A stretch of 36,988 bases of DNA, taken from contig CANORV010000009.1 of NCBI GenBank assembly GCA_947569245.1, forward strand, positions 1 to 36,988, given 5' to 3'. The position numbers and the translations under genes were made by a program. Position 1 is the first letter of the stretch; every line of letters begins with the position of its first letter. Source of the stretch: an uncultured Mycoplasmatota bacterium (GTDB lineage: Bacteria > Bacillota_I > Bacilli_A > RF39 > UBA660). The notes under the pieces were generated by a model. The model did no database searches, was not told the origin of the DNA, and saw only the letters and a program-made list of their open reading frames with translations. Of the stretch, positions 4,714-29,010 are shown piece after piece.

Positions 4714-4743
4714 GAATGGTATTATGTATCATTCTTTTTCTTT
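4714..4743 (+). terminator. Terminator of the pflBA operon
   Basis: An 8-bp stem (GAATGGTA with TATCATTC, one G-U pair) and a 5-nt loop are followed by TTTTTCTTT. The T-tract overlaps the -35 region of the next promoter. Confidence 0.65.
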
Positions 4744-4769
4744 GCATTTTTTTTATTTTGTGCTATAAT
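4741..4769 (+). promoter_or_regulatory. Sigma-A-type promoter of the HExxH paralog pair
   Basis: TTTGCA at 4741-4746, a 17-bp spacer, and TATAAT at 4764-4769 preceded by TGC (extended -10). Transcription would start near 4776, which excludes the upstream in-frame ATG at 4716. Confidence 0.7.
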
Positions 4770-4796
4770 ATGACAAGCGTTAGATGGAGGGGTTTT

Positions 4797-6407
4797 ATGA
4801 CTAAGGCTTATTATTTGAAAGTACTATATGATATAGTTAAAGATAGTAAGTATTTTCAAAATGAAGCTATTGATTTTTATTTATCTAGTGAGCAACTTAG
4901 ACTTTTTTATTATGGTTCATATGGTTCTTTTATTGAAAATATATATTTGTTTGGGAAAGAAGAAGATGAATATCTTATTTCTAATATGGTTATCGAGTTA
5001 GATAACTCTAAGATACTATGGTATAACTGTACTAATGGTGATGATAAAAGTAAAGATAACGACTTAATATGCATATATCTTAGGCTTTTTTCTGATCAAG
5101 AAGAGTGTGATTTGTTACAGTTATTTAATGATAAAAAAATTGTCTTCTATAATAATAAAAACCTTCATTTATATAAAAAATGTTTATCTGTTTTTGCTAA
5201 TGAAAAATTTTTAATGAGTAGTATGGGAATATTTATATCCCAAAGTTTAATAACAATACCATATTTATTAAAATGTAGTCATATTTATATTGATACTTGT
5301 TTACTTGATTCAATACTTATTTTAAATAATATGTTACCTTCTACAATTGTACTAAGTTTTATTAATTTGTTATATGGTGGTTTAAAATTTAGAGAAAAAA
5401 ACCAATATAGAAAGAAATATTTTTCAAAATTTGACTTTTCATTTGCAAATTTAAAAAGAAATTTCTTTATATTTTTTTATTCTGTTTCCTTAGCTAATAG
5501 TTTAATATCTTTCGGCTTAAATAAAGATATGTTTGCAAAGTATCAGGTAAAAATAGAGGCAGAAATTAATGATTTTTTGAATAGTTCTTTAAAAAATGAG
5601 CAGGATATGACACGATTAGAGGAAGTTGAATTGTTAGAGGAGGCAATTAATAATAATCCTAATTTAGATGAAGCATATAAAAAAGCATACTTAAAAAATT
5701 TGAAAGTTTTGGATTTATGCTCTTCAAATCTTGATTTTAAAAGACTTTATCCTATTCTTTCAAATACTGATGTAATTGATTTAGAATGTAATGTTGTAGA
5801 TAATTCTTACGATTATGTAACTATGTATTTAGCATTTCAATACTCTTTAGATAATAATATTTATGATTTGGTAAATGCTTATAATCATGATGATTTAGAC
5901 TTATGTGATTTAATTAGATCTCATGAAGTTGCTCATAATCTTGTTGATAATTGCTATTATTCTTGGTTTATTGAAGGATTTAATTCATTTAGTCAATATG
6001 AATTTTTTGGTTATTTTATTAAGTCCTATGAAAGACAAATGGTTATTGTTAAATACTTTTGTGAGTTGCTTGGGACAGAGACTGTAAAAAGGGCATATTA
6101 TGATGGCAATGAGGACATACTTAAAGATAATTTAATTAAAATTGATTCAACAGTAGATGTCGATATGTTTTTTGAATCACTTAATAATTTTGGATTTAGA
6201 TATACTGATAATAATAAGGAAGCTGTTACAATAATGAAAAATTATGCAGAAAAAATAGAATTATCTGATGAAAGTAGAATGTATGTTGATAGTTATTTGA
6301 GTTACTTAGGCGGTTATTCTTTAAATTATTTAAATAAGAATTATTTATCAGATAAAAATAGCAGTGATTTATTTGATGTTAAACCTGTACTTGTTAAAAG
6401 TCGTTAA
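4797..6407 (+). CDS. HExxH metalloprotease-like protein with hydrophobic segments, paralog A
   Basis: I do not recognise the family. The 536-residue product has three hydrophobic stretches at about residues 138-160, 166-200 and 221-242, which may be membrane hairpins, and soluble parts on both sides. A zinc-binding-type motif lies at H376-E377-x2-H380 (SHEVAHNL), followed by E393 in a W-F-I-E-G-F-N-S segment that recalls the third ligand of gluzincin peptidases, though it comes unusually early here (13 residues after H380). I take the ATG at 4797, six bases after GGAGG. A longer frame from 4716 would add a false signal-peptide-like segment coded by terminator and promoter DNA. A clear paralog follows directly. 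Protease activity is inferred only from the motif. Confidence 0.7.
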   Translation: MTKAYYLKVLYDIVKDSKYFQNEAIDFYLSSEQLRLFYYGSYGSFIENIYLFGKEEDEYLISNMVIELDNSKILWYNCTNGDDKSKDNDLICIYLRLFSDQEECDLLQLFNDKKIVFYNNKNLHLYKKCLSVFANEKFLMSSMGIFISQSLITIPYLLKCSHIYIDTCLLDSILILNNMLPSTIVLSFINLLYGGLKFREKNQYRKKYFSKFDFSFANLKRNFFIFFYSVSLANSLISFGLNKDMFAKYQVKIEAEINDFLNSSLKNEQDMTRLEEVELLEEAINNNPNLDEAYKKAYLKNLKVLDLCSSNLDFKRLYPILSNTDVIDLECNVVDNSYDYVTMYLAFQYSLDNNIYDLVNAYNHDDLDLCDLIRSHEVAHNLVDNCYYSWFIEGFNSFSQYEFFGYFIKSYERQMVIVKYFCELLGTETVKRAYYDGNEDILKDNLIKIDSTVDVDMFFESLNNFGFRYTDNNKEAVTIMKNYAEKIELSDESRMYVDSYLSYLGGYSLNYLNKNYLSDKNSSDLFDVKPVLVKSR

Positions 6408-6433
6408 TGTATAAAAAGGGGGGAATTTCCTTT

Positions 6434-8092
6434 ATGCTAAAAATAGATATTTTAAAAGAAATAATAGAAAATATTAAAGTTTCTAGTTATCATTTTGATT
6501 ATGATATTATTGAAGAAATTTTAAATAATGAAGAGAGTAAATTAGAAGATATATATGGTAGCAGTGATATTTTAAAGATTGCTTTTTATGGTACAAAGGA
6601 AGGTAGAAAAGACTTTAATATTTTAAAAATGCTTGTTTTATTAGATAACTATGAATCGTTATGGTATAACTTTTTTAATAATAAAGAAAGTAAAACTAGT
6701 TGCAATAGTAATTTTAATGCTAATGATATAATTGGTTTATATTTGATTTTACTTACTAATCAAAGAGGTAAGTCAATTGATAAGCTTTATCGTGATAAAA
6801 CAATTATTTTTTCTGATATAAGTAAGTCAGCATTTATGGAAAAAGTAACTTCTCTTTATAGCAGTGATTTATTTGATGATAATTTATTGCTAGTAATTTT
6901 TAGCCAGTTGGCAATTTCTTTTCCTTATATTCTTAAATGTAGAGATATTACAATCAATCATTTAGAAGGAGTAGTTACTTTTACTTCAGGTTTTTTAGAT
7001 TTTTTAATACCAATGAGTCTTGCTAATCTTTCTGTTTCTCTTTATGGATTTATTAAATCGTATAGTTTAAAAAAAATTAATTTTTCTCAATGTGACTTTT
7101 CTTATACAACTTGGAAAAGAAAAACAGCAGCTTTTTTATATGCATTAGCATTTGGTAATGTTTTAGCTTCTACTCATGTTAATTTGATAAATATCAATGA
7201 AATTCCATCATCTATTTTTTCAGAAATTGATGATATATTTAATAATCCATTTGATAATAAAGTTTTTACTAAATCTCAGAAATTAGAAATATTAAAGAGT
7301 GCAATTTTAAATAATAAGAATATTAGTGATGATTATAAGAGTCATTATTTAAAAAATTTGGAAGTTTTTATTGATTCATATGATGATATAAATTATAAGC
7401 AATTATATACTAACATTAGAAATTTAGATGTTATTGATGTTGAATGTATTATTAAAAAAGGACATTATACTGCTTTAGCATTTAATAACCGTTTAAATAA
7501 TAATATTTATGATTGTGTTAATGCTTACGATCATGATGATGAAAATGTTAGCGGAGCGGTTATATCACATGAAATTGGACATAATTTAGTTTTTTCTAAT
7601 TTTGGTTTGATTAAAGCTGGTATAGTTAAATATGATAGTAGTTTTATAATTGAAGGTTTTAATTCTTTAAATCAGTATGAAAATTTTGGCTATTATATGG
7701 ATGCTTATGATGATTACATTATTATAAATAAGTATTTTTGTGAATTACTTGGTGCTGATATTTTGAAGAAGGCTTATTATAGTGGAAATATTAGTATTTT
7801 AGAAGATGCATTAAGGGAGATAGATTCTTCAGTTAATGCATCGAGATTTCTTTCCTTACTTGATAAATTTTGTTATACTAATTCAAAAGATGAAAAGACT
7901 ATGGTTATTAGTGCAATGGAGTTATACTTGGAAAAAGCTGATATTGCTGTTGAAAATAAAGTTTATGCAAGAAATTATATAGAATATCTTAATGGTGATA
8001 TTGATTTTGTTATGGAAAAGGGATATCTTTCAGAAGAATATATAGAAAAAACGAAGAATGAGTCTTCAGTTTTAAGAAGAATATATAAATAG
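6434..8092 (+). CDS. HExxH metalloprotease-like protein with hydrophobic segments, paralog B
   Basis: This 552-residue protein is a tandem paralog of the preceding gene. Shared landmarks include YLKNL, DVID-E-C, NNIYD-VNAY-HDD, SHE-x2-HNL, IEGFNS-x-QYE, KYFCELLG and AYY-G-N. The motif is H379-E380-x2-H383, with E407 of IEGFNS 24 residues later, a spacing more usual for gluzincins than in paralog A. Hydrophobic segments occupy the same region (about 150-245). The start at 6434 follows AAGGGGGG by about ten bases; an ATG at 6407 overlaps the upstream stop but has no ribosome site. The two genes form one unit. The function is unknown; a membrane-bound zinc protease or a degenerate relative are both possible. 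Confidence 0.7.
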   Translation: MLKIDILKEIIENIKVSSYHFDYDIIEEILNNEESKLEDIYGSSDILKIAFYGTKEGRKDFNILKMLVLLDNYESLWYNFFNNKESKTSCNSNFNANDIIGLYLILLTNQRGKSIDKLYRDKTIIFSDISKSAFMEKVTSLYSSDLFDDNLLLVIFSQLAISFPYILKCRDITINHLEGVVTFTSGFLDFLIPMSLANLSVSLYGFIKSYSLKKINFSQCDFSYTTWKRKTAAFLYALAFGNVLASTHVNLININEIPSSIFSEIDDIFNNPFDNKVFTKSQKLEILKSAILNNKNISDDYKSHYLKNLEVFIDSYDDINYKQLYTNIRNLDVIDVECIIKKGHYTALAFNNRLNNNIYDCVNAYDHDDENVSGAVISHEIGHNLVFSNFGLIKAGIVKYDSSFIIEGFNSLNQYENFGYYMDAYDDYIIINKYFCELLGADILKKAYYSGNISILEDALREIDSSVNASRFLSLLDKFCYTNSKDEKTMVISAMELYLEKADIAVENKVYARNYIEYLNGDIDFVMEKGYLSEEYIEKTKNESSVLRRIYK

Positions 8093-10818: not shown

Positions 10819-12423
10819 ATGAAGTTTAGTAAAAATAATAAAAATATGGTAATGCTAGCTGTTTTATTAATAGCAGTTTTGATAATGATTGGTACAAGTT
10901 ATGCTTTATGGCAGATAACATTACAACAAACTGATACAAATGTTATAACAAGTGGTTGTTTTAAGGTTAGTTTTAAAGATAACAATCCAATAAATTTACA
11001 AAATGCTTTTCCTATTACAGATGATGAAGGAAAAAAACTTATTCCATATCAGTTTACACTAACAAATAATTGTTCAAGTTATGCTAATTATCAGGTTAAT
11101 CTTGAAGTGTTAGATAATACTACTATCAGTAATGATAATTATATTAAAATGATGCTTCAGGAGAAAAAGCCAATTTTGTTAACTTCTAATGATTTAATTG
11201 ATGTTACTTTAAATAATGCTGTTAAATCTTATAAGCTTGAAACAGGTTTTTTAAGTGAGAATGAGGAAAAAACATTTAATTTAAGACTATGGTTAGATGA
11301 GGAGACTCCAACAACAGAAGAAGTTATGAATAAAATTTTTAATAGTAAAGTAACTATTATTACAAGTCATCAAAAGAATGCTCCAACTTTTTCAGAAGCT
11401 GTTACGACATGTGGTAACAATGGTTATGATGCTAAAACTTGTATGTTAGAGAATAGTAAATATGATACTACTAATTTAATTAAAGATGGTACTGTCGATG
11501 ATAATTTAAGATTTGTTGGGAAGAATCCAGATAATTATGTGTTATTTAATGGTCAAAAATGGAGAATTATTGGAGTAATGAATAACATTGAAGGTAGTGA
11601 TGGTACAAAGGATTCAAGAATTAAGCTTCTTAGTAAAGAAAGTGTTGGAAAGATGTCATGGAATGCATCTTCACAACAATTGGAAAATGGTTTAGAGGAA
11701 GGAAATATGGGTGTTGGACTTAATGAATGGAGTCAAGCAGACATGATGAAGGTTTTAAATCCTGGTTATGAAAGTGAGGCAATCGGTGGTAGCCTTTATT
11801 GGAATAAGCAAAGTGGTACTTGTTATTATGGAGAAAATAATGCAACCACTGCTTGTGATTTTACTGTAACAGGTTTGAATGAAGAAAGTAAATCATATAT
11901 AGATAATGTCGTGTGGAATACTGGTAGTAATACTGTTGGAGAAACTGTGGATACTCTTACTCCTAATACATTTTATCAGGCTGAAAGAAGTGATAAAGGT
12001 GGTAAACAATGTGATACATCACATATGTTTTGCACAGATAAGGTTGATAGAACTACAAAATGGACTGGAAGGGTTGGCTTAATGTATCCATCAGATTTTG
12101 GATATGCTACAAGTGGAAGTACGACTACTCCTAGAAATACGTGTATAAATACTTCGATGAGAAAGCAGTGGCAGGGAAAAGCTGATTGTTATAATAATGA
12201 TTGGATATTTGACGGTGTTTTTCACTGGACAATGATGCCATATGCTGATCCAAGTGTTGCTGCATATGTTATTAGAATTTGGGAGAATGCTGATCTTATG
12301 GAGGCTGCTTCAGGATTTGGTAATGGTTATGGACAAACTCATCCAGCAATTTATTTAAAACCATCTACTATGATTAAGTCAGGTACTGGTACATTTGATG
12401 ATCCATATATTTTGAGTCAATAA
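10819..12423 (+). CDS. Exported modular protein with TasA/camelysin-like N terminus
   Basis: The 534-residue protein begins with a basic N terminus and a hydrophobic segment (about 10-31) ending in GTSYALWQIT, like the SipW-dependent signal peptides of TasA and camelysin. Residues about 35-180 resemble the TasA-like beta-sandwich, which builds extracellular fibres or acts on the surface. A second region (about 190-534) has many cysteines and signposts such as WRIIGV, AIYLKP and a C-terminal GTGTFDDPYIL. I have an impression of similar segments in exported proteins of gut Bacillota but cannot name a domain. The start follows AGGAGG. Promoter and terminator make it a single-gene unit. No sipW homologue lies in this window. 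Export is well supported, fibre formation is not. Confidence 0.75.
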   Translation: MKFSKNNKNMVMLAVLLIAVLIMIGTSYALWQITLQQTDTNVITSGCFKVSFKDNNPINLQNAFPITDDEGKKLIPYQFTLTNNCSSYANYQVNLEVLDNTTISNDNYIKMMLQEKKPILLTSNDLIDVTLNNAVKSYKLETGFLSENEEKTFNLRLWLDEETPTTEEVMNKIFNSKVTIITSHQKNAPTFSEAVTTCGNNGYDAKTCMLENSKYDTTNLIKDGTVDDNLRFVGKNPDNYVLFNGQKWRIIGVMNNIEGSDGTKDSRIKLLSKESVGKMSWNASSQQLENGLEEGNMGVGLNEWSQADMMKVLNPGYESEAIGGSLYWNKQSGTCYYGENNATTACDFTVTGLNEESKSYIDNVVWNTGSNTVGETVDTLTPNTFYQAERSDKGGKQCDTSHMFCTDKVDRTTKWTGRVGLMYPSDFGYATSGSTTTPRNTCINTSMRKQWQGKADCYNNDWIFDGVFHWTMMPYADPSVAAYVIRIWENADLMEAASGFGNGYGQTHPAIYLKPSTMIKSGTGTFDDPYILSQ

Positions 12424-13090: not shown

Positions 13091-13954
13091 ATGACGGCAC
13101 TTGTTATAATTCACTATAATGATTACGATTCTACTAAAAATTTATTGATTAATGTTAAAGATTATAAAGCAATTGATTATGTTCTAGTAGTTGATAACTG
13201 CTCAAGTGATGACTCTTATAAGAGATTACTTGAATTTGAAACAAAAAAAGTAGAAGTAATTAAAACCCTTAAAAATGCTGGATATTCTAGTGCTATAAAT
13301 TATGGTTGTAAATATTTAATAGAAAAATTTGGAGATATTAATCTAATTATTTCAAATTCAGATATTGTTATAAATAAAAATAGTGATATTAAAAGACTTA
13401 GTATGGTACTTGATAGTAGTAGTTCTTATGCAGTTATTGCACCAGTTATTATTGAAAAAAAGACTTTAAATAGAGGATGGAAGATACCAAAACCATTTAT
13501 TGAAGTACTCTTAAATATTCCTTATTTTCATCGTTATGTAAGAAGAAAATTTGTTCATTATAATGATAAACATTTTAATAGTGAGTTTTCTGTAGTTGAA
13601 GCTGTTAGTGGATGTTTTTTTATGATAAAGTCTTCAGTGTTAGAGAAAATTGATTTTTTAGATGAAAATGTGTTTTTGTATTATGAAGAAAATATTTTAG
13701 GAAAAAAAATAGAAAAACTTGGTAAGAAAGTAATTATTGATAATGGTGTTATAGTTGTACATAATCATTCTGTTTCAATTGATAAAAATATGAAAAGAAT
13801 AAAGAAGTATAAGGAACTAAAAAAGAGTCAATATTATTTTCAGTGCAATTATAATAAAGCTAATTTAATAGAGAGAGTATTACTTAAAGTTAGTTCATGT
13901 TTAAGTACTATTATGTATTCTATTTTGTATTTTGTTAAGGATTTATTTAAATAA
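13091..13954 (+). CDS. GT2 glycosyltransferase, WbbL/rhamnosyltransferase-like
   Basis: The 287-residue protein has a GT-A fold: IIHYNDYDST at the N terminus, VVDNCSSDD for the nucleotide, NAGYSSAINYG, and ISNSDIVI in the DxD position. VSGCFFMIKSS followed by FDE-like FLDENVFLYYEE is the acceptor and catalytic segment typical of WbbL-like rhamnosyltransferases. The C-terminal 25 residues are hydrophobic and basic, suggesting membrane association. Start: ATG after AGGTGATG. It is the first gene of the glycan locus with its own promoter and no terminator before rfbA. The transferred sugar is not certain; rhamnose is suggested by family and neighbours. Confidence 0.85.
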   Translation: MTALVIIHYNDYDSTKNLLINVKDYKAIDYVLVVDNCSSDDSYKRLLEFETKKVEVIKTLKNAGYSSAINYGCKYLIEKFGDINLIISNSDIVINKNSDIKRLSMVLDSSSSYAVIAPVIIEKKTLNRGWKIPKPFIEVLLNIPYFHRYVRRKFVHYNDKHFNSEFSVVEAVSGCFFMIKSSVLEKIDFLDENVFLYYEENILGKKIEKLGKKVIIDNGVIVVHNHSVSIDKNMKRIKKYKELKKSQYYFQCNYNKANLIERVLLKVSSCLSTIMYSILYFVKDLFK

Positions 13955-13984
13955 CTATGTGTGTTATAATAGTTATGTTATAAT
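13951..13984 (+). promoter_or_regulatory. Inverted repeat and two extended -10 elements before rfbA
   Basis: ATAACTAT (13951-13958) and ATAGTTAT (13969-13976) form an 8-bp inverted repeat around TATAAT at 13965-13970. A second TGT-TATAAT follows at 13976-13984. Neither has a convincing -35. No T-tract follows, so an operator or paired weak promoters fit better than a terminator. Confidence 0.4.
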
Positions 13985-14014
13985 TAATTATATGAAGTAT
14001 GGAGGTTTTGAAAT

Positions 14015-14890
14015 TTGAAAGGTATAATTTTAGCGGGTGGGTCTGGTACTAGACTTTATCCGATTACAGAGGGTATTAGTAAACAGTTAATACCAATTTA
14101 TGATAAACCGATGATTTATTATCCGTTATCAATTTTAATGCTTGCTGGTATTAGGGATATTCTTTTAATTACAACAAAGGAAGATCAGCCTGGATTTAAG
14201 CGGCTTTTTGGTACTGGTAGGCAGTTTGGTTTAAATTTAGAGTATATTATTCAACCATCACCTGATGGACTTGCTCAAGCTTTTACGTTAGGTAAAGATT
14301 TTGTTTTAAATGATACGTGTGCAATGATATTGGGAGATAATATTTTTTACGGAAATGATCTTGTTAAGAAGTTAAATGATGCAAGGAAAAATGCCGATAA
14401 AGGATATGCAACAATTTTTGGCTATCAAGTAGCTGATCCAGAGAGATTTGGAATTATGGAAATTGATTCAAATAATAATGTGTTGTCTGTTGAAGAAAAG
14501 CCTAAATTACCAAAGAGTGATTTTGCAATTACTGGTCTTTATTTCTATGATAATAGTGTAGTTGATAAAGCTTTTAAGATTAATAAGTCTATTAGAGGAG
14601 AATACGAAATTACTGATTTAAATAGGATGTATTTGGATGAAGGAAGACTAAAAGCTGAACTTTTAGGTGGTGGATATGCTTGGTTTGATACAGGGCTTAC
14701 TGATAGTTTGCTAGATGCAAGTAATACTATTAAAACTCTTCAAAAATTAAGGGCTTCTATAATCAGTTGTCCAGAGCAAATTGCTTATAAATTGGGATGG
14801 ATAAATAGGGAAGAATTATTAAAAAGAGCTAATTTAATGAAGAAAAATGATTATGGAAAGTATTTGATGAAGGTTTATGAAAAAAATTAG
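14015..14890 (+). CDS. rfbA: Glucose-1-phosphate thymidylyltransferase
   Basis: The 291-residue enzyme joins dTTP and glucose-1-phosphate to dTDP-glucose, the first step to dTDP-L-rhamnose and other dTDP-hexoses. The signature GGSGTRLYPIT near the N terminus binds the nucleotide; SKQLIPIYDKPMIYYPLS, the IIQPSPDGLAQAF segment and the ILGDNIFYG metal site are all intact. The length equals that of RmlA/RfbA. The start is TTG at 14015, about nine bases after GGAGG. rfbB, rfbC and rfbD are not nearby, so the dTDP-sugar it feeds cannot be named for certain; the surrounding rhamnan-type genes favour rhamnose. Confidence 0.97.
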   Translation: MKGIILAGGSGTRLYPITEGISKQLIPIYDKPMIYYPLSILMLAGIRDILLITTKEDQPGFKRLFGTGRQFGLNLEYIIQPSPDGLAQAFTLGKDFVLNDTCAMILGDNIFYGNDLVKKLNDARKNADKGYATIFGYQVADPERFGIMEIDSNNNVLSVEEKPKLPKSDFAITGLYFYDNSVVDKAFKINKSIRGEYEITDLNRMYLDEGRLKAELLGGGYAWFDTGLTDSLLDASNTIKTLQKLRASIISCPEQIAYKLGWINREELLKRANLMKKNDYGKYLMKVYEKN

Positions 14891-15000
14891 TTCTTTGTAA
14901 AAAAGGTTATAGGTTGTTTTGGTAGTGTACATATGAAATATAAAATATTGATATGTTATAAATTTTAAGAATGTTTTAGAAGTAATAAGGAGAATTAAGT

Positions 15001-16590
15001 ATGAGTAAAAAAAGCATGATAGTCGAATGGACTTGTAAAAATAAAAAAATGGGCTTTATTGTTTTAGGCATTTTTTTTGTTGCTATGTTGATTTTACATA
15101 ATTTTGTAGAATTATATGGGGATGATTTTTGGTATGGGACGTATAGCCACCTTAATTTATTTAAATGTGTTACTGAAACTGCAAATTTGTATTTAGTATC
15201 TAATGGTAGGTTAGTAGTAAATATCTTAATTAGTATATTTTTATATGGTAATGTATTTGTTTGGAGAGTTGTTCATCCTATCTTATTAACACTATTTATA
15301 TACGTCATTGCCAAAATTTTGTCTAATGATAATTTTAGTTTTAATGTGTCAGTAATTTTGGGATGCGTTTTCTTTATGATGATAGATGTGTTAGTATCAC
15401 AGGAAGCTATATATTGGTTAACTGGTTCATTAAATTATATAATTCCTACATTTTTAATATTATTACATTTTTATTTATTTAATAGTTATGTAACTAATAA
15501 AAACAGCTTTTTTAGAAAGAATAATTTAGGCTTTTTATTACCATTAATTGCAATTTTTACAACAATGCAGGTTGAGCAATCATCATTTGTTAGTTGTGGA
15601 TTAGTAATTTTATTGTTAGGATATCGTTTCTTTTTTAAGAAAGAAAAATTGGATATGGTTATGATTTTAGATTTACTTGTTAATATTGCTTGTTTTTTAC
15701 TAATTGTATTTGCACCTTTAAGTTTGAGTAGACTTGGTGTAGAGCAAGCTCAGAGTCAATCACAATTTACAGTTATAACACATAATTTAAAGTACTTTGT
15801 TCAATTGTTTTTTACATATAGACCTTATCAGATATTTAATATTATATATTTATTCTTCTTAACTGTATCATTATCTAATAAATTTAAGAAAGATAGTAAG
15901 TTACATAAAGGATATTTATTACTTTCAATGATGGCTATTTTTGCATTTATTACAATTATGTTGAAATCATCTATTGGAAATCAATTTGTGTTTAGAGAGT
16001 TTATTTTTGATAATTTTATTAAGTTTTCGTTAGTGGCGTTTGCAATAATTGTTTTCTTTGGTAGTCAAGTAATTTATTGCTTTTATACTTTTAAAGAGAA
16101 AAATCCTTATCCATCTATATTTTTACTATCAGGATGGTCAGTTCAATTAATGATGATTTGTGTTCCAACTATGGGATATAGAACAACACTTATTACACAT
16201 TGTATGTTATGGCTTGTTTTATTTCCAATTATAATTGATATTTTACGTAGTAAGAAAAAGAATAATGACAGATTATTTTTTAATGCAACTTTTATACTTT
16301 GTATAGCTTTTTTTGCTTTCTTTTATCAGTGGTGGTATCATGTTGATGGCTATTCTAAAAATAGTAAAATACTTAGAGAAAATGAAAGAATTGTGCTTCA
16401 GTATAAAAAAGAAAATTATAAAGGTATAGATAAAATAGAATTGATGCTTCCAGAAACGCAAGCTTATCGTTGGATGATGCCTTATGAATCTGAAGGTCAT
16501 AAAAGAGTGTTTAGAGAATTCTATAATATTCCTGCTGATGTGGAAATTCAATATTTAGATAAAGAATCTAATGTGGTAATAACGTTTTAA
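15001..16590 (+). CDS. Polytopic membrane protein, GT-C/DUF6056-like
   Basis: The 529-residue protein has about ten or more hydrophobic helices (first at about residues 17-37, last near 425-445) and a soluble C-terminal tail of about 80 residues. The first outside loop contains YGDDFWYG and, further on, SNGRLV, an acidic-motif loop plus NGR arrangement that I associate with DUF6056 and other GT-C-type glycosyltransferases using polyprenyl-phosphate sugars. Its place between rfbA and the ABC transporter genes supports a role in extracytoplasmic decoration of the polymer. The start follows AAGGAG. The family call is moderate; donor and acceptor are unknown. A Wzy-type polymerase is a less likely alternative. 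Confidence 0.65.
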   Translation: MSKKSMIVEWTCKNKKMGFIVLGIFFVAMLILHNFVELYGDDFWYGTYSHLNLFKCVTETANLYLVSNGRLVVNILISIFLYGNVFVWRVVHPILLTLFIYVIAKILSNDNFSFNVSVILGCVFFMMIDVLVSQEAIYWLTGSLNYIIPTFLILLHFYLFNSYVTNKNSFFRKNNLGFLLPLIAIFTTMQVEQSSFVSCGLVILLLGYRFFFKKEKLDMVMILDLLVNIACFLLIVFAPLSLSRLGVEQAQSQSQFTVITHNLKYFVQLFFTYRPYQIFNIIYLFFLTVSLSNKFKKDSKLHKGYLLLSMMAIFAFITIMLKSSIGNQFVFREFIFDNFIKFSLVAFAIIVFFGSQVIYCFYTFKEKNPYPSIFLLSGWSVQLMMICVPTMGYRTTLITHCMLWLVLFPIIIDILRSKKKNNDRLFFNATFILCIAFFAFFYQWWYHVDGYSKNSKILRENERIVLQYKKENYKGIDKIELMLPETQAYRWMMPYESEGHKRVFREFYNIPADVEIQYLDKESNVVITF

Positions 16591-16608
16591 TTATAGGAGG
16601 TAACTAAT

Positions 16609-18399
16609 ATGAAATTAAATTTAGATTTTTATAAGGGAACAGATGAGTATAGTGATGGTGATATAGAGGATACAATATTAAAGTTTATAAAAAAATATCC
16701 TGATAATTTAGAAAAAGCTTTTTTGGAAAATGAAGAGTGGGCTATATTTTATCATTTGTCTTCACTAAGAAAAAATTCTATTAGTTGGTATCCTTTTAAA
16801 TCCAACTGCACTATTTTAGAAGTTGGTGGAGGAATGGGAGCAATTACTGATACATTATGCAAAAAGGCAAAGAAGGTAACCAGTATTGAACTTTCTAAGA
16901 GGAGAGCAACAGCTATTGAGATGAGAAATGAAAAAAATAATAATTTAGAAATTATTGTTGGAAATTTTAATGATATAGTTTTAAAAGAAAAATATGATTA
17001 TATTTTATTAAATGGTGTTTTTGAGTATGCACAGTTATATGTTGATTCTGAGCAACCATATGTTGATTTTTTAAATAAGTTAAAAGATAATTTAAAAGAT
17101 GACGGAAAGATATTGATAGCTATAGAAAATAAGTTTGGTTTGAAATATTGGTGTGGAGCAGGTGAAGATCATACTGGTCTTCCATATGATGGGATAAATG
17201 ATTATGTTAATTCTAATTTTGCTAGGACTTTTAGTAAAGAAGAATTAAGTACAATTGCAAAACATTGTCATTTAAATGCTAATTTTTATTATATGTTTCC
17301 AGATTATAAATTTCCAAAGATAATATATACAGATGAAGCATTAGAGAAAAATGTGTTTCTAGATTATTCTCCATATTATTATAGAAAAATGGATTTATTC
17401 GTTAATGAAAAAAATGTTTATAAAGAAATATATAATAATAAAATGATTCCTTTTTTTGCAAATTCTTACTTTTTGGAATTATCTAATACTGTAACACCAA
17501 AGCAAATAGAATTTGTAAAATATAATAATGATTATAGAAAAAAAGAATACGATATATTTACGTATTTAAAAGATAACATGGTTTATAAAGAGGCTAATAA
17601 TTCATTAGCTAAGGCTAAAATACATGAAATTTTAAGTATTAATAAATATTTAAAGGATAATTCTATCGATGTAGTGGATGTAGAAAAGGATAAGGAAAAA
17701 ATTTTTTCTTTGTATGTACAGGGGCAAAATTTGGAAGATAAAATAAATCATCTTTATTCAGTTGGTGAAATAGATTCCATTATGTGTATATATGATAATA
17801 TTTTTGAGTTGATAAAAAAAGCAGGTGGCAAGACTGTTAATAATTTAAAGAATAATATTTTTTCTAAATATGGAATAAAACTCAATAAAGATGAATATGC
17901 AAATTTACATTTTTTGGCAAATGGAGTTATTGATATTATTCCTAGTAACATTATAGAAAAAGATGATAAGTATGTATTGTTTGATCAAGAATGGATGGAG
18001 AAAAATGTTCCAATTGAATATATAATGTATCGTGGTATTATTACAACAATTGGTAAGATTAATGATAAGTATGATTTAACAAAATTATTATTTAAAAGAT
18101 ATGATATTAATTATGAATTGATGAATGAGTTAGATCAGAGATTTTTAAGCCATATTCACAGTGAAGAATATAGTGTTCATGTACATTATTATAATAATGT
18201 TGAAGTAATAGATAATGTGAATGATTTATTACATATGAGATATGATTATCCATTATTAAAAGAAGATAATCAAGTAATGAAAGATACTATAAAAAATTTA
18301 AAAGATGAAAATGATAGGTTACTTTATAATTTTAATTTAGTGTTAAACTCAAAAGGATGGAAGATGCTTGAAAGGCTTAGAAAATTAAAAAGGTGGTAA
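16609..18399 (+). CDS. SAM-methyltransferase with C-terminal kinase-like and coiled-coil regions
   Basis: The 596-residue protein carries a class I methyltransferase domain at about residues 60-210: ILEVGGGMGAITDTL (motif I), then SIELSKRR and YDYILLNGVFEY. AIENKFGLKYWCGAGEDHTG follows, a segment I associate with polysaccharide-locus methyltransferases. Residues about 300-530 look like a second domain whose VLFDQEWMEKNVPIEY resembles the DxEW element of sugar-kinase-like domains. The last 45 residues form a coiled coil ending in LNSKGWKMLERLRKLKRW. A similar motif begins the WbsX-RgpF fusion encoded at 19935. It may methylate or cap the growing chain before export; that is inferred. It lies directly ahead of the exporter genes. 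Confidence 0.75.
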   Translation: MKLNLDFYKGTDEYSDGDIEDTILKFIKKYPDNLEKAFLENEEWAIFYHLSSLRKNSISWYPFKSNCTILEVGGGMGAITDTLCKKAKKVTSIELSKRRATAIEMRNEKNNNLEIIVGNFNDIVLKEKYDYILLNGVFEYAQLYVDSEQPYVDFLNKLKDNLKDDGKILIAIENKFGLKYWCGAGEDHTGLPYDGINDYVNSNFARTFSKEELSTIAKHCHLNANFYYMFPDYKFPKIIYTDEALEKNVFLDYSPYYYRKMDLFVNEKNVYKEIYNNKMIPFFANSYFLELSNTVTPKQIEFVKYNNDYRKKEYDIFTYLKDNMVYKEANNSLAKAKIHEILSINKYLKDNSIDVVDVEKDKEKIFSLYVQGQNLEDKINHLYSVGEIDSIMCIYDNIFELIKKAGGKTVNNLKNNIFSKYGIKLNKDEYANLHFLANGVIDIIPSNIIEKDDKYVLFDQEWMEKNVPIEYIMYRGIITTIGKINDKYDLTKLLFKRYDINYELMNELDQRFLSHIHSEEYSVHVHYYNNVEVIDNVNDLLHMRYDYPLLKEDNQVMKDTIKNLKDENDRLLYNFNLVLNSKGWKMLERLRKLKRW

Positions 18400-18400
18400 A

Positions 18401-19141
18401 ATGAAAAAAAATAAGGATTTTGCAATAAAAGTATGTGATGTATCTAAAACATTTAAGTTAAAATATGATAGGCATAGTACTTTGAAAGAAAAAATAGTAT
18501 TTTGGAAAAATAATAAAACAGAATTTCATACAGTTTTAAATAATGTGAATTTGGAGATAAAAAAAGGTGAAACAATTGCTTTGATCGGTACAAATGGTAG
18601 TGGAAAAAGTACTTTGTTAAAATTAATGACAAAAATTATTTATCCAACAAGTGGTAAGATATTAACAAATGGAAAATTAACTTCTTTACTTGAACTGGGT
18701 GCTGGGTTTCATCCTGATTTTACTGGAAGAGAAAATATTTATTTTAATGCTTCAATTTTTGGATTAACTGCTGCTGAAATTGATAGTAGGGTAGAAAAAA
18801 TTATAGAATTTTCTGAATTAAGAGAGTTTATTGATAGTCCAGTTAGAACTTACTCTTCTGGAATGTATATGAGACTTGCTTTTTCTGTAGCAATTAATGT
18901 GGATGCGGAAATTCTGTTAATTGATGAAATTTTAGCAGTTGGTGATCAACATTTTCAAGATAAATGTTTTAGTAAACTTCATGAATTGAAAAATAGCAAT
19001 AAAACGATAGTTATTGTAAGTCATAGTCTTGGTGCAATAAAGCAATTGTGTGATCGAGCTATATGGATTTATGATGGTCAGGTAAGAATGGATGATGTCT
19101 GTGATAAAGTTGTCGATGAATATTTGAAAGTGTGTGGTTAA
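18401..19141 (+). CDS. Polysaccharide ABC exporter, ATP-binding subunit (Wzt/TagH/RfbB-like)
   Basis: The 246-residue ATPase has Walker A GTNGSGKST starting at residue 63, the signature YSSGMYMRL from residue 151, Walker B ILLIDEI at about 171-177 and the switch histidine H208 in VSHSLG. LLELGAGFHPDFTGRENIY between Walker A and the signature is typical of the polysaccharide/teichoic acid export subfamily. It ends soon after the nucleotide-binding domain, so it lacks the C-terminal carbohydrate-binding domain of long Wzt proteins; a capped-chain sensor would have to be elsewhere. The start follows AGGTGG inside the previous gene's end. The permease gene comes next. Confidence 0.93.
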   Translation: MKKNKDFAIKVCDVSKTFKLKYDRHSTLKEKIVFWKNNKTEFHTVLNNVNLEIKKGETIALIGTNGSGKSTLLKLMTKIIYPTSGKILTNGKLTSLLELGAGFHPDFTGRENIYFNASIFGLTAAEIDSRVEKIIEFSELREFIDSPVRTYSSGMYMRLAFSVAINVDAEILLIDEILAVGDQHFQDKCFSKLHELKNSNKTIVIVSHSLGAIKQLCDRAIWIYDGQVRMDDVCDKVVDEYLKVCG

Positions 19142-19143
19142 TT

Positions 19144-19911
19144 ATGATATATAAGTTATATGAATATAGACAATTGTTAAAAAGTAATGTAAGAAAAGAA
19201 ATTAGGGGAAAATATAAAGGTTCTTTTTTGGGTGTATTGTGGTCATTTGTTAATCCTTTATTGATGACTTTGATTTATGCAATTGTTTTTCCCTTTATAT
19301 TAAAAAATTCTCAAGAACATTATGTTACATATTTAGTAATAGGTATTTTACCTTGGAATTTTTTTACTACGGTTATTGCACAGGGAACTACAACTATTTT
19401 ATGTAATGCAGGTATTATAAAGAAAGTGTATTTTCCACGGGAAATATTACCAATTTCTGTTGCTACAAGTGGTCTTATTAATTTTATAATCTCTTTTCCT
19501 ATTATTTTAATTTTTCTTTTAGTAAGTGGAATCGGTTTTAGTTATTATATACTATTTGTACCGTTAATTATTTTGACTGAATATATATTTTTACTAGGTA
19601 TTATTTTTATTACTAGTGCCATTGAGGTTTATATAAGGGATGCTGAGTATATTATAAACTTCTTTATAAATATGCTGTTTTACGCTACTCCTGTACTTTA
19701 TTCAGCTGATTTATTTCCTAAGAAAATGTCTTGGATATTTAAATTTAATCCAATGGCAACTATCATAGAAAGTTTTAGAGACGTATTATTTTATAAATCG
19801 ATGCCACCTATTAAAATGTTGTTAATAGTATTATTTATGTGTATTGTTTTATTACTTATTGGAATTAAAATTTTTCAAAAATTAGAAAGAGGATTTGCAG
19901 AGGAAGTATAA
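19144..19911 (+). CDS. Polysaccharide ABC exporter, permease (Wzm/TagG/RfbA-like)
   Basis: The 255-residue membrane protein has about six helices and the ABC-2 family landmarks REIRGKYKGSFLGVLWSFVNPL near the start (amphipathic coupling region), FPREILP in the middle and a C-terminal basic tail. Together with the upstream ATPase it forms the exporter that moves an undecaprenyl-linked polymer across the membrane. I choose ATG 19144, just after the upstream stop; a GTG at 19132 would overlap the ATPase gene. The ribosome site is weak in either case, so translational coupling is likely. Confidence 0.92.
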   Translation: MIYKLYEYRQLLKSNVRKEIRGKYKGSFLGVLWSFVNPLLMTLIYAIVFPFILKNSQEHYVTYLVIGILPWNFFTTVIAQGTTTILCNAGIIKKVYFPREILPISVATSGLINFIISFPIILIFLLVSGIGFSYYILFVPLIILTEYIFLLGIIFITSAIEVYIRDAEYIINFFINMLFYATPVLYSADLFPKKMSWIFKFNPMATIIESFRDVLFYKSMPPIKMLLIVLFMCIVLLLIGIKIFQKLERGFAEEV

Positions 19912-19934
19912 TTGTTATTTATTGAGGTGATTAA

Positions 19935-21992
19935 ATGAGATTTTCAGAAAAGGAATTACTTAATAGAAAAAAAATCTATTATCAAAATGTTAATATTAAA
20001 TGTTTAGAAAATAAAATAATTGAGCTTCAAAATGAGATTAATAAAAGAGATATTATATTAAATTCAAAAAGTATTAAGTTACTGAATAAACTACGTGAAT
20101 TAATTTTTAAAGTTAGGGTTTTTGTTAAAAATAAATTTGGAATTAGAAAAAAGAAACAATCAATAGCAAGTTCTTATAATGTTTTTGATTATTTTCCACT
20201 TAATTTAGAAACTAAATCAAATGAGGTAATTCAGAAAATGGCTACAGATATTAAACCACTTGCATTTTATTTTTTAGATGATTATGCAAATGGAAATGAT
20301 ATATCTTGGACTAAGATAACAGATGTAAAACCCAAACATAAAAATCATTATCAGCCAAGGAGACCTTCTGTTGATTTTGGCTATTATGATTTAAGTATTT
20401 CTACATTAAGAAAACAAACATCAGTAGCAAAACAACATGGTATTTATGGTTTTTGTTATATGTATAAACTAAAAGATAAGAATCATAAAAAATTCTTAAA
20501 TAAGATGTTATCATCTAATATTGATATGCCTTATGTAATTTGTTTAGATATTTCTAATGAAAACTTAGAAAATGATAAAAATTTAAATTTATTTATAGAT
20601 GAAATTTATCCATATTTGATAGATGAGAGATATATTAAAATTAATGGTACTCCTATTTTAATGTTTAATGATACCGTTTTACTTGATGATTTTTGTAAAA
20701 TTATAACTAATATTAGAAATCTTTTAAAAAAGAAAAATATTGATGTATTAATATGGCAAGATAAAGATTTGAATGATTCAAATCAGGCAAATTTGGATTA
20801 TATAGATGGTGAATTTCAATTTTATTTTGATGAGGAGTCTGTTCTTCCAAAGGATCCATTAAATTTGTATGATTACGATTTGGTATCAAAATGTGTAAAA
20901 AAGAATTATCGTTTGCATGCTTCAATATTACCATATTATTATTCTGTTTCTTTACCTGTTGATTTTTCTTTATTACAATGTGTAAATCCTAGAATTAATT
21001 ATAATTTTAATGTCGATAATTTTTCTTTTTATGTTAATGAGGTAATTCGTCAAACGAGAGATACTCATGATGAGGGTGATAGATTTATTTTTATTAACTC
21101 ATGGAATAATTGGAAAATTGGTAATTATTTAGAACCAGATAATGATAGAGGATACAGTTATTTAAATGCATTTTCTAAAACTTTCTATGGGGTTCCATTA
21201 AATGATAATTATACTTTGATTGATAAAAATACTCCTAAATTACGAACTTTAAAAAATAAGAAAATTGCAATTCAAATACATTTATTTTATACTGATTTGA
21301 TTGAGGAAATTTGTAGTTATTTGAAAAATATTCCATATGATTTTGATTGTTATATCTCTACTGATACAAATGATAAAAAAGTCTTAATAGAAAAAGGTTT
21401 TTCTGAATTATTAAAGTGCCATAAGGTCGTTGTTGATGTTTTTGAAAATCGTGGAAGAGATATCTTACCATTTTTGTTACAAATGAAGCAGGAAATAGGT
21501 AATTATGATTATGTATGTCATATTCATACAAAAAAGACTGTAACTAATAATCATGGCAAACGATGGAGAAAATATTTATACAATAATTTATTTGGTTCTC
21601 GTGAAATAGTAGAAAGTATTTTTTATCTATTTGAACATAATCAAAATCTTGGATTAATTTTTCCGTGTATATATAGTGATGTTGTTAATGATTGTACTAT
21701 TGTTGGAAATGAAGTTTTTATGCATGACTTAGCAAACAGATTAGATATTTCGGTAGATGGAATAAAAGATGGAATGATATTTCCAGCTGGTAGTATGTTT
21801 TGGTTTAAAACTGAAGCCATACGAAAATTATTTGAAATAGGGTTAAATGAGAAGGATTTTCCAGATGAAAGTAGTCAGGTTGATGCAACATATGCTCATG
21901 CTATTGAAAGAATGTTTTGTTATATTGCAGAGCAAAATGGTTATGATTCATTGCAAATTATGGGCAAATTTGATTTAGAGGAGGATATTTAA
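19935..21992 (+). CDS. WbsX-type glycosyltransferase fused to a RgpF rhamnan-synthesis domain
   Basis: The 685-residue protein has three parts. Residues 1-70 form a coiled coil and basic stretch containing LNSKSIKLLNKLREL. Residues about 80-400 match WbsX (PF14307, GH99-like fold): KPLAFYFLDDYANGNDISWTKI, the HYQPRRPSVDFGYYDL region and FINSWNNWKIGNYLEPD. Residues about 430-685 match RgpF (PF05045): QIHLFYTDL, VDVFENRGRDILPFL, HIHTKKT, FPAGSMFWF and YAHAIERMF. RgpF works in rhamnose-glucose polysaccharide synthesis in streptococci, so this protein is the best evidence that the polymer is rhamnan-like. The start follows GAGGTGA. Confidence 0.88.
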   Translation: MRFSEKELLNRKKIYYQNVNIKCLENKIIELQNEINKRDIILNSKSIKLLNKLRELIFKVRVFVKNKFGIRKKKQSIASSYNVFDYFPLNLETKSNEVIQKMATDIKPLAFYFLDDYANGNDISWTKITDVKPKHKNHYQPRRPSVDFGYYDLSISTLRKQTSVAKQHGIYGFCYMYKLKDKNHKKFLNKMLSSNIDMPYVICLDISNENLENDKNLNLFIDEIYPYLIDERYIKINGTPILMFNDTVLLDDFCKIITNIRNLLKKKNIDVLIWQDKDLNDSNQANLDYIDGEFQFYFDEESVLPKDPLNLYDYDLVSKCVKKNYRLHASILPYYYSVSLPVDFSLLQCVNPRINYNFNVDNFSFYVNEVIRQTRDTHDEGDRFIFINSWNNWKIGNYLEPDNDRGYSYLNAFSKTFYGVPLNDNYTLIDKNTPKLRTLKNKKIAIQIHLFYTDLIEEICSYLKNIPYDFDCYISTDTNDKKVLIEKGFSELLKCHKVVVDVFENRGRDILPFLLQMKQEIGNYDYVCHIHTKKTVTNNHGKRWRKYLYNNLFGSREIVESIFYLFEHNQNLGLIFPCIYSDVVNDCTIVGNEVFMHDLANRLDISVDGIKDGMIFPAGSMFWFKTEAIRKLFEIGLNEKDFPDESSQVDATYAHAIERMFCYIAEQNGYDSLQIMGKFDLEEDI

Positions 21993-21994
21993 TT

Positions 21995-23377
21995 TTGAAA
22001 GGTAATATTTTATATATTGTACATCAATGGATTGATGTTTCTAATTATGACAGTACATCAATTGGTGGGACAACTCTTCATATTTTAGACATTGTAAATA
22101 AAATAAAAGATGAATATAATTGTTTTGTTTTATATCATGCAAATGGATTTTATAATTTAGCCGTATATCAAAATGGTTCTGCTAACTTTTTTGACTTAGG
22201 ATTTTCTGTAAAATCTAATCTGTTTGATTGTTATGATGAAGATTATGAAAAAATGTTATTAGAGTTAATTGATAAATTAAAAATTGATTTTGTACATATT
22301 CATCATTTGTTGGGGCATACTTATAATATTTTAAATGTGTTAAAGTCAAAAAAAATTAAAACAGTTATTACGTTACATGATTATTTTTTAATTTGTCCTA
22401 GGGTCAATATGTTATATAAAAATCAAGATTATTGTAATTTAACATCTATAAGTTGTTGTGAGAAGTGTTTTGATAATGAGTTTGATTTTAAGACTAGAAA
22501 CAAGATTGTTGGAGATTTATTTAATTATGCTGATACTATAATTGTACCTAATAAAACCGTTGAAAAGCTATATAAAAAAATCCATGCTGATTTTAATTAC
22601 AAATTAATTGAACATGGTAGTGATTTAGTGCAAATTAAGCCAGTTAATTTTAATAACAACAAACTGAATGTAGCCTTTGTTGGATGGCTTACATATTTAA
22701 AAGGAAGTGATATTGCTAAATTGGTTATTCAAAATTCGAATCCAAGGGAATATTCATTTCATCTATTTGGTTTGTCAGATGATCCATTTTTTAATCAAAA
22801 TACAAAAAACTATCAATATCATGGGGAGTATAAGAGAGAAAATCTAGCACATTTATTAAGAAAAAACAAAATTGATGTGGTGTGTTTATTAACTAGATGT
22901 CCAGAAAGTTATTGTTATACATTATCGGAAGTATTGAGTGCTGGTATTCCAGTAATAGGATTTGATATTGGAGCAATTGGTGAGAGAATAAAAAGGTTAA
23001 ATGTTGGATGGACTATTTCACTTAAATCTAAAGAAATAGGGGTTTTAAATAAATTATGGGAAATAAAATCCAAACCATCTATGTATCAAAAATGTTTAAA
23101 GTCTTTTAGTAAATTACAGCTTCCTACTACAGAACAGATGATTGATCAGACATTAAATGAGTATAAGACTCTTATGACTAGTAATATAATTGATAATGAA
23201 TGGAGTTTAGAAGAATTAAATAAAGTTTCATTTCCAATTACACAAATAAAAATAATTAAAAAGAAAATTAAATGTAATAATATTATATCTATTTTAAAAA
23301 GAAGAATTCCATATTCAATAAAACGTCCAGTTTATTTAGTTATTCAAAAATTAAAAAATAAGAGAGGTAAGAGATAA
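21995..23377 (+). CDS. GT4 (GT-B fold) glycosyltransferase
   Basis: The 460-residue enzyme has an N-terminal acceptor domain with the glycine-rich SIGGTTLHILD loop and a C-terminal donor domain with VAFVGWLTYLKGSDI. The E-x7-E motif (ESYCYTLSEVLSAGIPVIGFD) binds the nucleotide-sugar in retaining GT4 enzymes. Its last 60 residues are basic (RRIPYSIKRPVYLVIQKLKNKRGKR in parts), suitable for membrane contact. The start is TTG after GAGGAGG. It follows the WbsX-RgpF gene by 2 bp and is followed by the next gene after 2 bp, so it is in the middle of a tight operon. The sugar cannot be named. Confidence 0.88.
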   Translation: MKGNILYIVHQWIDVSNYDSTSIGGTTLHILDIVNKIKDEYNCFVLYHANGFYNLAVYQNGSANFFDLGFSVKSNLFDCYDEDYEKMLLELIDKLKIDFVHIHHLLGHTYNILNVLKSKKIKTVITLHDYFLICPRVNMLYKNQDYCNLTSISCCEKCFDNEFDFKTRNKIVGDLFNYADTIIVPNKTVEKLYKKIHADFNYKLIEHGSDLVQIKPVNFNNNKLNVAFVGWLTYLKGSDIAKLVIQNSNPREYSFHLFGLSDDPFFNQNTKNYQYHGEYKRENLAHLLRKNKIDVVCLLTRCPESYCYTLSEVLSAGIPVIGFDIGAIGERIKRLNVGWTISLKSKEIGVLNKLWEIKSKPSMYQKCLKSFSKLQLPTTEQMIDQTLNEYKTLMTSNIIDNEWSLEELNKVSFPITQIKIIKKKIKCNNIISILKRRIPYSIKRPVYLVIQKLKNKRGKR

Positions 23378-23379
23378 GT

Positions 23380-24504
23380 ATGAAAAAGAAACAAAAAGAA
23401 GATATAGTTGTTTACACATCTATTTGTATGAATTATTTACCAAAGGCATTAGTTCTTGGTGAATCTTTGAAAAAGCATAATCCAGATATAAAGTTTTATG
23501 TTGTATTATTAGAAAGGAGTATTCCAAAAGAAGTAACTAATGATATGTATAAAATAATAGATAAAATTATTTTAGCTAAAGATTTGGGTTATGAAGATTT
23601 TGATAAATTTATTTTTAAACATTCAATTGTTGAAGCCTCAACATCAGTTAAGGGACAAGCACTTGTTTATTTATTAGAAAATGTAGCTAATAAAGTTATG
23701 TATATTGATCCTGATATAAAGGTTTATAATAAATTTGATAAATTGAAAGATTTATTAAATAAGCATGATATTATTTTGACTCCACATCTTACAATACCAG
23801 AAATTAAAGAACAAGATATTAGAAATAATGAATTGTGTGCTTTACAACATGGAGTGTACAATTTGGGATTTGTTGCTGTTAATGGAAGAGATGAGGGAAT
23901 TAAATTTGCTAAATGGTGGAGAGATAGACTTCATTTATATTGTTATGATGATATTCCTAATGGTATTTTTACTGATCAAAGATGGGTTGATCTTGCACCA
24001 GCATATTTTGATTGTTATATATTAAAAGATTTAGGACATAATATGGCCCCATGGAATCTTTCTACACGCAAATTGTATGATGTTAATGGTAAATTATTAG
24101 TAAATAAGAAAGATGAATTAGTTTTTTTCCATTTTTCAGGTTTTGATAGTGGTGCAAATCTTTCAGTTTTTAGTAATTATATAGCTGATAAAAATGCTAT
24201 TGAATTTTCATTACGTGATGAGTATGTAGAAGATTTAAATCGTATGGAACAGGGATTATTGGGATCTTATTGTTGGTCTTATTCTTTATATGAAAGTGGA
24301 GAAAAGATAGATACATATGTTAGAATTTTGTATCGTGATAGGAAATTTTTTAATGAAATAGAAGAATCTCCGTTTTCAATGAGCAATGAATATTTTAAAA
24401 ATCTATTTGGTGTAAATGAAGTTACGAAAGTAGAGAAAACGGGAATTAAAAATACCAAAATTTATAATTTTTTAAGAAAATGTAAGCATAAAATTTTTAG
24501 ATAA
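23380..24504 (+). CDS. GT-A/GT8-like glycosyltransferase
   Basis: The 374-residue protein starts with VYTSICMNYLPKALVLGESL, the strand-helix opening of GT8-like enzymes, and carries D110-P-D112 (MYIDPDIKVY) as a DxD metal site. LQHGVYNLGFVAVN and FFHFSGFD are further marks of this group of bacterial GT8-like proteins in polysaccharide clusters. The C terminus is basic. An internal overlapping frame of 65 codons at 23828 is only a shadow. It is probably inverting or retaining on a dTDP-, UDP- or GDP-sugar that cannot be identified from sequence. Confidence 0.82.
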   Translation: MKKKQKEDIVVYTSICMNYLPKALVLGESLKKHNPDIKFYVVLLERSIPKEVTNDMYKIIDKIILAKDLGYEDFDKFIFKHSIVEASTSVKGQALVYLLENVANKVMYIDPDIKVYNKFDKLKDLLNKHDIILTPHLTIPEIKEQDIRNNELCALQHGVYNLGFVAVNGRDEGIKFAKWWRDRLHLYCYDDIPNGIFTDQRWVDLAPAYFDCYILKDLGHNMAPWNLSTRKLYDVNGKLLVNKKDELVFFHFSGFDSGANLSVFSNYIADKNAIEFSLRDEYVEDLNRMEQGLLGSYCWSYSLYESGEKIDTYVRILYRDRKFFNEIEESPFSMSNEYFKNLFGVNEVTKVEKTGIKNTKIYNFLRKCKHKIFR

Positions 24505-24567
24505 TGAAAAATTTATCTTATAAAATATAATATTTGCAAGCATAAAATGAAGGGATGGAAACTTTTT

Positions 24568-25413
24568 ATGAAAATAGCGGGTGTAGTTACTCTTTATAAT
24601 CCAGATGATGATATAATTGATAATATAAATTCTTATTTAGATGATATTGATAAACTTTATGTAATTGATAATTCTAATAATTCGAATGAGAAGAAATTAC
24701 CTACAAACAAGAAAATTGAGTATTTTCCAAATTATGAGAATTTGGGAGTTGCAAAGGCATTAAATATCGGTGCAAAATATGCTATTAAAGATAAATGTCA
24801 ATGGTTACTTACAATGGATCAAGATAGTAGATTTAAAAAAGGTGATGTAGGAAGAATGATTTCTTATATAAAAGAAAATGATTGTAGTTTGGTTGGTATA
24901 GTTACTCCTTGGCATGTTATTAATACTGTTATTGTTAAACCTAAAGAAGAAATTGATCATCCCTTTGAAGTTATGACTTCTGGAAATATTATAAATCTTG
25001 ATGCATATCAGAAAGTTAAAGGTTTTAAGGACTGGTACTTTATAGATGATATTGATATTGAATATTGTATGAATTTAAATGTTCATGGATATCATATTGA
25101 TCGTTTGAATTATATAGAACTTGCTCATGATTTAGGTGATATTAAATTAAAACATCTTTTGGGAAGAAATTTTGTTTGTAGTAATCATAACTATATTAGA
25201 AGATATTACATGGTTAGAAATACTTTTTATTTGAATCAAGAATATCATGAGAGATTTCCTGATTATTGTAATTTTTTGAAAAGAGGACTTAGAGGTCAGC
25301 TTCAAAATATTATTCTTTTTGAAAAAGATAAATATAAAAAAATTAGAAATATGATAAGAGGATATCGTGATTATAAAAACAATGTGAAGGGTGTTTATCC
25401 ATACCATAATTAG
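24568..25413 (+). CDS. GT2 rhamnosyltransferase-like enzyme
   Basis: The 281-residue GT-A protein opens with AGVVTLYNPDDDI, then LYVIDNSNNS, NLGVAKALNIGAKYA and LLTMDQDS with the DxD pair. WYFIDDIDIEYCMN matches the catalytic acidic segment of rhamnosyltransferases related to RfbN/RfbF. I choose ATG 24568 after the GAAGGGATGG ribosome region, not the ATG at 24547 which lacks one. It is the last gene of the first glycan operon, ended by the terminator at 25437-25466. Confidence 0.87.
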   Translation: MKIAGVVTLYNPDDDIIDNINSYLDDIDKLYVIDNSNNSNEKKLPTNKKIEYFPNYENLGVAKALNIGAKYAIKDKCQWLLTMDQDSRFKKGDVGRMISYIKENDCSLVGIVTPWHVINTVIVKPKEEIDHPFEVMTSGNIINLDAYQKVKGFKDWYFIDDIDIEYCMNLNVHGYHIDRLNYIELAHDLGDIKLKHLLGRNFVCSNHNYIRRYYMVRNTFYLNQEYHERFPDYCNFLKRGLRGQLQNIILFEKDKYKKIRNMIRGYRDYKNNVKGVYPYHN

Positions 25414-25436
25414 TTTTATTGATTTTATGTTGTGTA

Positions 25437-25466
25437 AAAAGACGTAAATAATTGCGTTTTTTTTTT
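25437..25466 (+). terminator. Terminator splitting the glycan locus
   Basis: An 11-bp stem (25437-25447 with 25452-25462, including G-U pairs) and a 4-nt loop run into a tract of ten T. Confidence 0.85.
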
Positions 25467-25472
25467 GTTTTC

Positions 25473-25501
25473 TTGAGGTTTTTATGATTTTCTTCTATAA
25501 T
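25473..25501 (+). promoter_or_regulatory. Promoter of the second glycan operon
   Basis: TTGAGG at 25473-25478, a 17-bp spacer and a perfect TATAAT at 25496-25501, starting 7 bp after the upstream terminator T-tract. Confidence 0.85.
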
Positions 25502-25518
25502 GTAGTTAGGTGGTATAC

Positions 25519-26652: not shown

Positions 26653-26657
26653 GTTAT

Positions 26658-28024: not shown

Positions 28025-28032
28025 TGAATTTT

Positions 28033-28992: not shown

Positions 28993-29010
28993 TTGAGAGG
29001 TGAAGTAGTT

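Follow-up and report, generated by a model that had tools for sequence, protein, structure and literature searches.

The window analysed here, a stretch of 36,988 nucleotides, carries two tandem open reading frames, copy 1 and copy 2, whose products are 36–37% identical over nearly their whole length (Table 1). A preliminary description made from the sequence letters had reported this pair, and its reading frames, coordinates and shared motifs, including an HExxH followed by a trailing glutamate, all proved real, with the sole correction that the motif given as IEGFNS-x-QYE has two residues at the variable position. Both copies thus contain HExxH, IEGFNSxxQYE and KYFCELLG. Copy 2 begins 26 bases past the end of copy 1 and has its own Shine–Dalgarno sequence, and from this layout the two genes are probably a single transcription unit with its own promoter; a relative in the same genus (L005) has a comparable TTGAAA-17-TATAAT site, also with TG before the −10 element. 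An alternative, longer start of copy 1 at 4716 is unlikely, because both the promoter-like site and a strong Shine–Dalgarno sequence precede the ATG at 4797.

Table 1. Features of the tandem gene pair, in window coordinates
Feature	Position	Strand	Basis
Promoter-like site upstream of the pair, extended −10 (TTTGCA-17-TATAAT, TG before)	4741..4769	+	consensus match only
Copy 1 ribosome-binding site, GGAGGGG	4786..4792	+	sequence
Copy 1, 536 aa membrane-anchored gluzincin-like protein	4797..6407	+	ORF
Copy 1 hydrophobic region, three segments (residues 139–241), K/R-rich loop before the last	5211..5519	+	hydropathy
Copy 1 catalytic-type domain (residues 266–536)	5592..6404	+	AF2 model, pLDDT 88, pTM 0.87; alignment A4
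Copy 1 HEVAH (H376, E377, H380; residues 376–380)	5922..5936	+	invariant in 34 homologues
Copy 1 E393, proposed third zinc ligand	5973..5975	+	invariant; aligns with Glu of aminopeptidase N EG
Copy 1 E402 to Y411, two further invariant residues	6000..6029	+	alignment, 34 homologues
Copy 2 ribosome-binding site, GGGGGG	6418..6423	+	sequence
Copy 2, 552 aa paralogue	6434..8092	+	ORF
Copy 2 hydrophobic region, three segments (residues 151–252)	6884..7189	+	hydropathy
Copy 2 catalytic-type domain (residues 273–552)	7250..8089	+	AF2 full-length model, pLDDT mostly 83–97 here
Copy 2 HEIGH (H379, E380, H383; residues 379–383)	7568..7582	+	alignment
Copy 2 11-residue insertion (~residues 391–401), loop between HExxH helix and glutamate helix	7604..7636	+	alignments, spacing, low pLDDT 392–398
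Copy 2 E407, proposed third zinc ligand	7652..7654	+	alignment

When the C-terminal domain was aligned across 34 homologues, mostly 15–23% identical (alignment A4), only six columns never varied: the H, E and H of HExxH, the trailing glutamate, a second glutamate nine residues on, and a tyrosine. Both copies keep all six, and in an alignment of 28 homologues the sole invariant columns were those of H379, E380, H383, E407, E416 and Y425 of copy 2. Because all six invariant columns sit around the motif while the commonest residue in the median column of the 34-homologue alignment accounts for just 30% of rows, the alignments indicate that the conservation of HExxH..E is more than chance. The HExxH and downstream glutamate of gluzincins (MA clan) are therefore kept throughout the full-length homologues, where free variation of the histidines had been named beforehand as the observation that would count against a zinc site; the histidines are lost solely in a separate set of short proteins described below.

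The distance from the motif to the trailing glutamate is 13 in copy 1 and 24 in copy 2, as the preliminary description had correctly counted, corresponding to 12 and 23 intervening residues. Its suggestion that this difference marks a change of activity in one copy did not hold up. The number of intervening residues is 11–17 in 33 of the 34 homologues, with 12 being typical and the 23 of copy 2 an outlier, so that by alignment the spacing of copy 2 is a derived state and the difference comes from 11 residues inserted into a loop of copy 2 and not from loss of the site. Nor would such spacing be a sign of lost activity, because published peptidases of the gluzincin-type M60-like family span HEXXHX(8,28)E (Nakjang et al. 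2012, PMC3267712), a pattern into which the 11–23 intervening residues seen here fall, and a related clade has gaps of 24–40.

That clade (alignment A5) occurs in the same bacterial family, is marked by HELFHMxS...NEGYTxLLTxRYF and is homologous to the present proteins over 167 columns (hhalign probability 98.9, E = 2.9e-17), with the same H, E, H and E (H135, E136, H139, E171) and flanking pattern. It differs in its wider gap, its EGYT and RYF signature and the lack, in most members, of a hydrophobic segment, and no name for it was found in the libraries. The window's own genome holds a relative from this clade (L131:1138-1932, contig C40) that has lost the HExxH and NEGY motifs. Short homologues (180–278 aa) without HExxH were also found in several genera (L007, L008, L010, L011, L012 and L046); they show that non-catalytic roles exist in the superfamily, and are possibly non-catalytic partners. 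One homologue of more than 600 aa (L051:1465-2394 plus the remainder of the ORF) seemingly contains the C-terminal part of the domain a second time, as a degenerate repeat.

Whole-genome searches with a single-protein query found the family in 9 of 386 genomes, and with a four-row profile in 57 of the 385 order-level genomes sampled (52 of the 305 of good quality); 17 of 56 genera were positive in the sample of relatives. All firm relatives fall in the same bacterial family, which may be RF39/UBA660, with only marginal matches outside; the protein family is thus large but hardly represented beyond this one bacterial lineage. A weak match from another bacterial family (L135) is an HELGH protein that resembles PepF/M3 oligoendopeptidase F and was rejected as a member. 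Phage records gave no match, and our literature search found nothing on such a family in RF39-type bacteria. Two named relatives come from uncultured Bacilli MAGs, one of them from water deer rectum.

In a same-genus relative (G042) the gene, here X, occurs once and occupies the same slot, pflB-pflA-X-methyltransferase-pseudouridine synthase. Copies 1 and 2 group as sisters in the tree (99/95), with G042 joining them next (99/98), and the duplication therefore followed the split from G042. For the same reason the heteromeric complex that the preliminary description had read into the tandem pair is unsupported: this relative has a single copy in the same slot, as do several other relatives elsewhere, which makes an obligate heteromer of copies 1 and 2 unlikely. 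Members of the same genus and of genus g110 retain the pflB-pflA-X-methyltransferase slot, which in g110 holds one copy or, in G420, two that are unpaired in the tree. Syntenic copies have also decayed, that of G110 (L009:1275-2352) into a pseudogene with frameshifts and stops and that of G486 (L069:5650-7049) into two ORFs. Between the window and G042, X is 31–32% identical, versus 71–97% for pflB, pflA, the methyltransferase and the pseudouridine synthase, and dN/dS within g110 is 0.25–0.28 for X versus 0.03–0.10 for its neighbours. Judged from these comparisons, X changes several times as fast as the genes around it and is under purifying selection that is loose but present overall; dN/dS between the window and G042 is 0.6, a rough value with dS near saturation. 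A functional tie to pyruvate formate-lyase is not supported, because relatives in other genera adjoin unrelated genes (by eye: rnc, trmE/jag/yidC, eno).

Tandem paralogues with a loop insertion in the second, very fast divergence and site-less short homologues in the superfamily are also what one would expect of a zinc-binding domain of which one or both copies no longer cut, with copy 2 serving copy 1 as a partner in binding or regulation. We consider this unlikely, since the six invariant residues are intact in both copies, the gene stands as a single copy in the same slot elsewhere, and spacing extends to 28 in the M60-like family.

Upstream of the catalytic-type domain, the hydrophobic segments of both copies are only moderately hydrophobic (1.3–1.8). 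A K/R-rich side precedes the last hydrophobic segment in most homologues, copies 1 and 2 included; most other relatives have one N-terminal hydrophobic segment with the same charge bias, and two (L038 and L045) have N-termini that look lipoprotein-like by eye. From hydropathy, charge and these lipoprotein-like relatives, we infer that the C-terminal domain probably faces outside. The moderate hydropathy of the segments, together with a HELFHMxS clade that mostly lacks them and may be cytosolic, would instead suit a catalytic domain in the cytosol or at the inner membrane face, belonging to a regulated membrane protease like BlaR1/MecR1 with another topology. The probability we give to that arrangement is low, as the charge bias at the last segment, and relatives that are lipoprotein-like or have a single anchor, place the domain on the outer side, and the HExxH lies ∼130 residues past the last hydrophobic segment and is not intramembrane. 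A site-2 protease (M50) was rejected on similar grounds, the HExxH (376, 379) being outside the hydrophobic segments, which end at 241 and 252. The module N-terminal to these segments was found in other proteins of the same genus only, and its comparison with the N-terminal module of genus g110 gave an hhalign probability of 2.9, which does not demonstrate kinship.

Structure prediction, which had been proposed as a check on the zinc site, returned a confident AlphaFold2 model of the copy 1 domain in which three short strands lead to the HExxH helix (102–117, domain numbering) and then, consecutively, to the glutamate helix (124–139). The copy 2 model has the same order of elements, with the loop insertion appearing as a low-confidence stretch (392–398). 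In their secondary structure, both models therefore have the gluzincin arrangement of a small sheet, an HExxH helix and a glutamate on the following helix. Searches of Pfam, NCBIfam, PADLOC, PHROGs and PDB gave no meaningful family match, and neither sequence nor fold gave a statistically significant match to any characterised peptidase, in accordance with the earlier impression that the proteins fit no recognised family, here extended to every described family in the libraries searched. Against PDB, 31 of the 35 matches of the domain profile were M1-type enzymes aligned at HExxH..EG, although weakly (best E = 0.053), and the family profile aligns with HEYFH..KEG of aminopeptidase N (PepN). 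Foldseek gave no significant match (best E = 1.2 in PDB and 0.045 in a viral library); zincins (selecase minigluzincin, deuterolysin, PepO, NleC, IrrE) were over-represented among its weak matches, which also included M61 and IrrE-like viral proteins; the fold search with the full-length model was uninformative. Weak as they are, these resemblances in profile and fold lean chiefly towards MA-clan metallopeptidases, and the M3-like L135, the profile's weak match outside the bacterial family, counts on the same side.

Among known families, the M1 aminopeptidases (PepN and LTA4 hydrolase, both gluzincins) likewise have HExxH and then EG on the next helix. Their gap is 18, in contrast to 11–17 in this family (23 in copy 2), no score against M1 was significant, and this family has none of the other M1 domains; the M1 Pfam profile matched neither the copies nor family members, and the GxMEN exopeptidase motif is absent from the sequences of both copies. 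The M60-like family (PF13402) resembles the present one in its variable spacing, extracellular location and host-associated microbes (PMC3267712), but the list of families with E up to 1 for 28 members does not include PF13402. On these comparisons, membership in the M1 or M60-like families is not supported. Minigluzincins (selecase, and projannalysin of M. jannaschii) were the most frequent fold matches; they differ in being ∼108 residues long with no membrane part, and match with E above 1 and a TM-score on the target of at most 0.47. Together, the invariant HExxH..E, the confident model and the weak, MA-clan-leaning matches leave a gluzincin-type metallopeptidase as a well supported predicted identity. 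That chance produced HExxH and EGF, and that the protein is helical and membrane-bound but no zincin, as the want of a significant library or fold match might suggest, is very improbable when exactly these residues are invariant across 34 homologues and H135, E136, H139 and E171 are kept in the related clade.

We therefore regard it as likely that the two copies are integral membrane gluzincin-type zinc metallopeptidases with an outward domain, arising by tandem duplication after the split from G042. A cytosolic N-terminal module of ∼130 residues would be followed by three membrane segments and, outside, by the C-terminal domain of ∼270 residues. There, we infer, zinc would be held by the two HExxH histidines together with the glutamate that opens the following helix, and activation of water by the HExxH glutamate would lead to the cutting of peptide bonds in extracellular peptides or proteins. 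Both copies are predicted to be active, and their different loops may perhaps confer different substrate preferences. The best reading, from sequence and models, is an undescribed lineage-specific family of surface metallopeptidases. We hypothesize a role in cell-surface interaction, which the wide but patchy spread, speed of change, duplication and decay of the gene would fit. More speculatively, and with low probability, these could be rapidly evolving surface proteases in conflict with peptides of competitors, of phages or of the animal host; the cytosolic module would then tune their activity, the site-less and apparently cytosolic homologues would serve as decoys or regulators, and the tandem copies would provide two specificities. 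The family would add an undescribed metallopeptidase family in gut Bacilli, which have few characterised surface enzymes, and as its catalytic residues are fixed inside a fast-changing domain, both the substrate and the conflict hypotheses are directly testable.

Elsewhere in the window, a 534 aa protein (10819-12423) has, judged by eye, a signal region like that of SipW/TasA and matches no Pfam family at E 0.001, and an extended series of genes for glycosyltransferase-like proteins, ABC-type polysaccharide export and sugar nucleotides (13091-29955) is probably a surface polysaccharide cluster. The contig start cuts a BclA-like collagen-repeat protein, leaving its C-terminal part at 2-484 (BclA_C, E = 2.9e-16), and comparable GPTGPTG proteins are encoded ahead of the pfl slot in L066–L069 and L071. 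This BclA-like protein and a CotE at 35251-35781 suggest a spore former.
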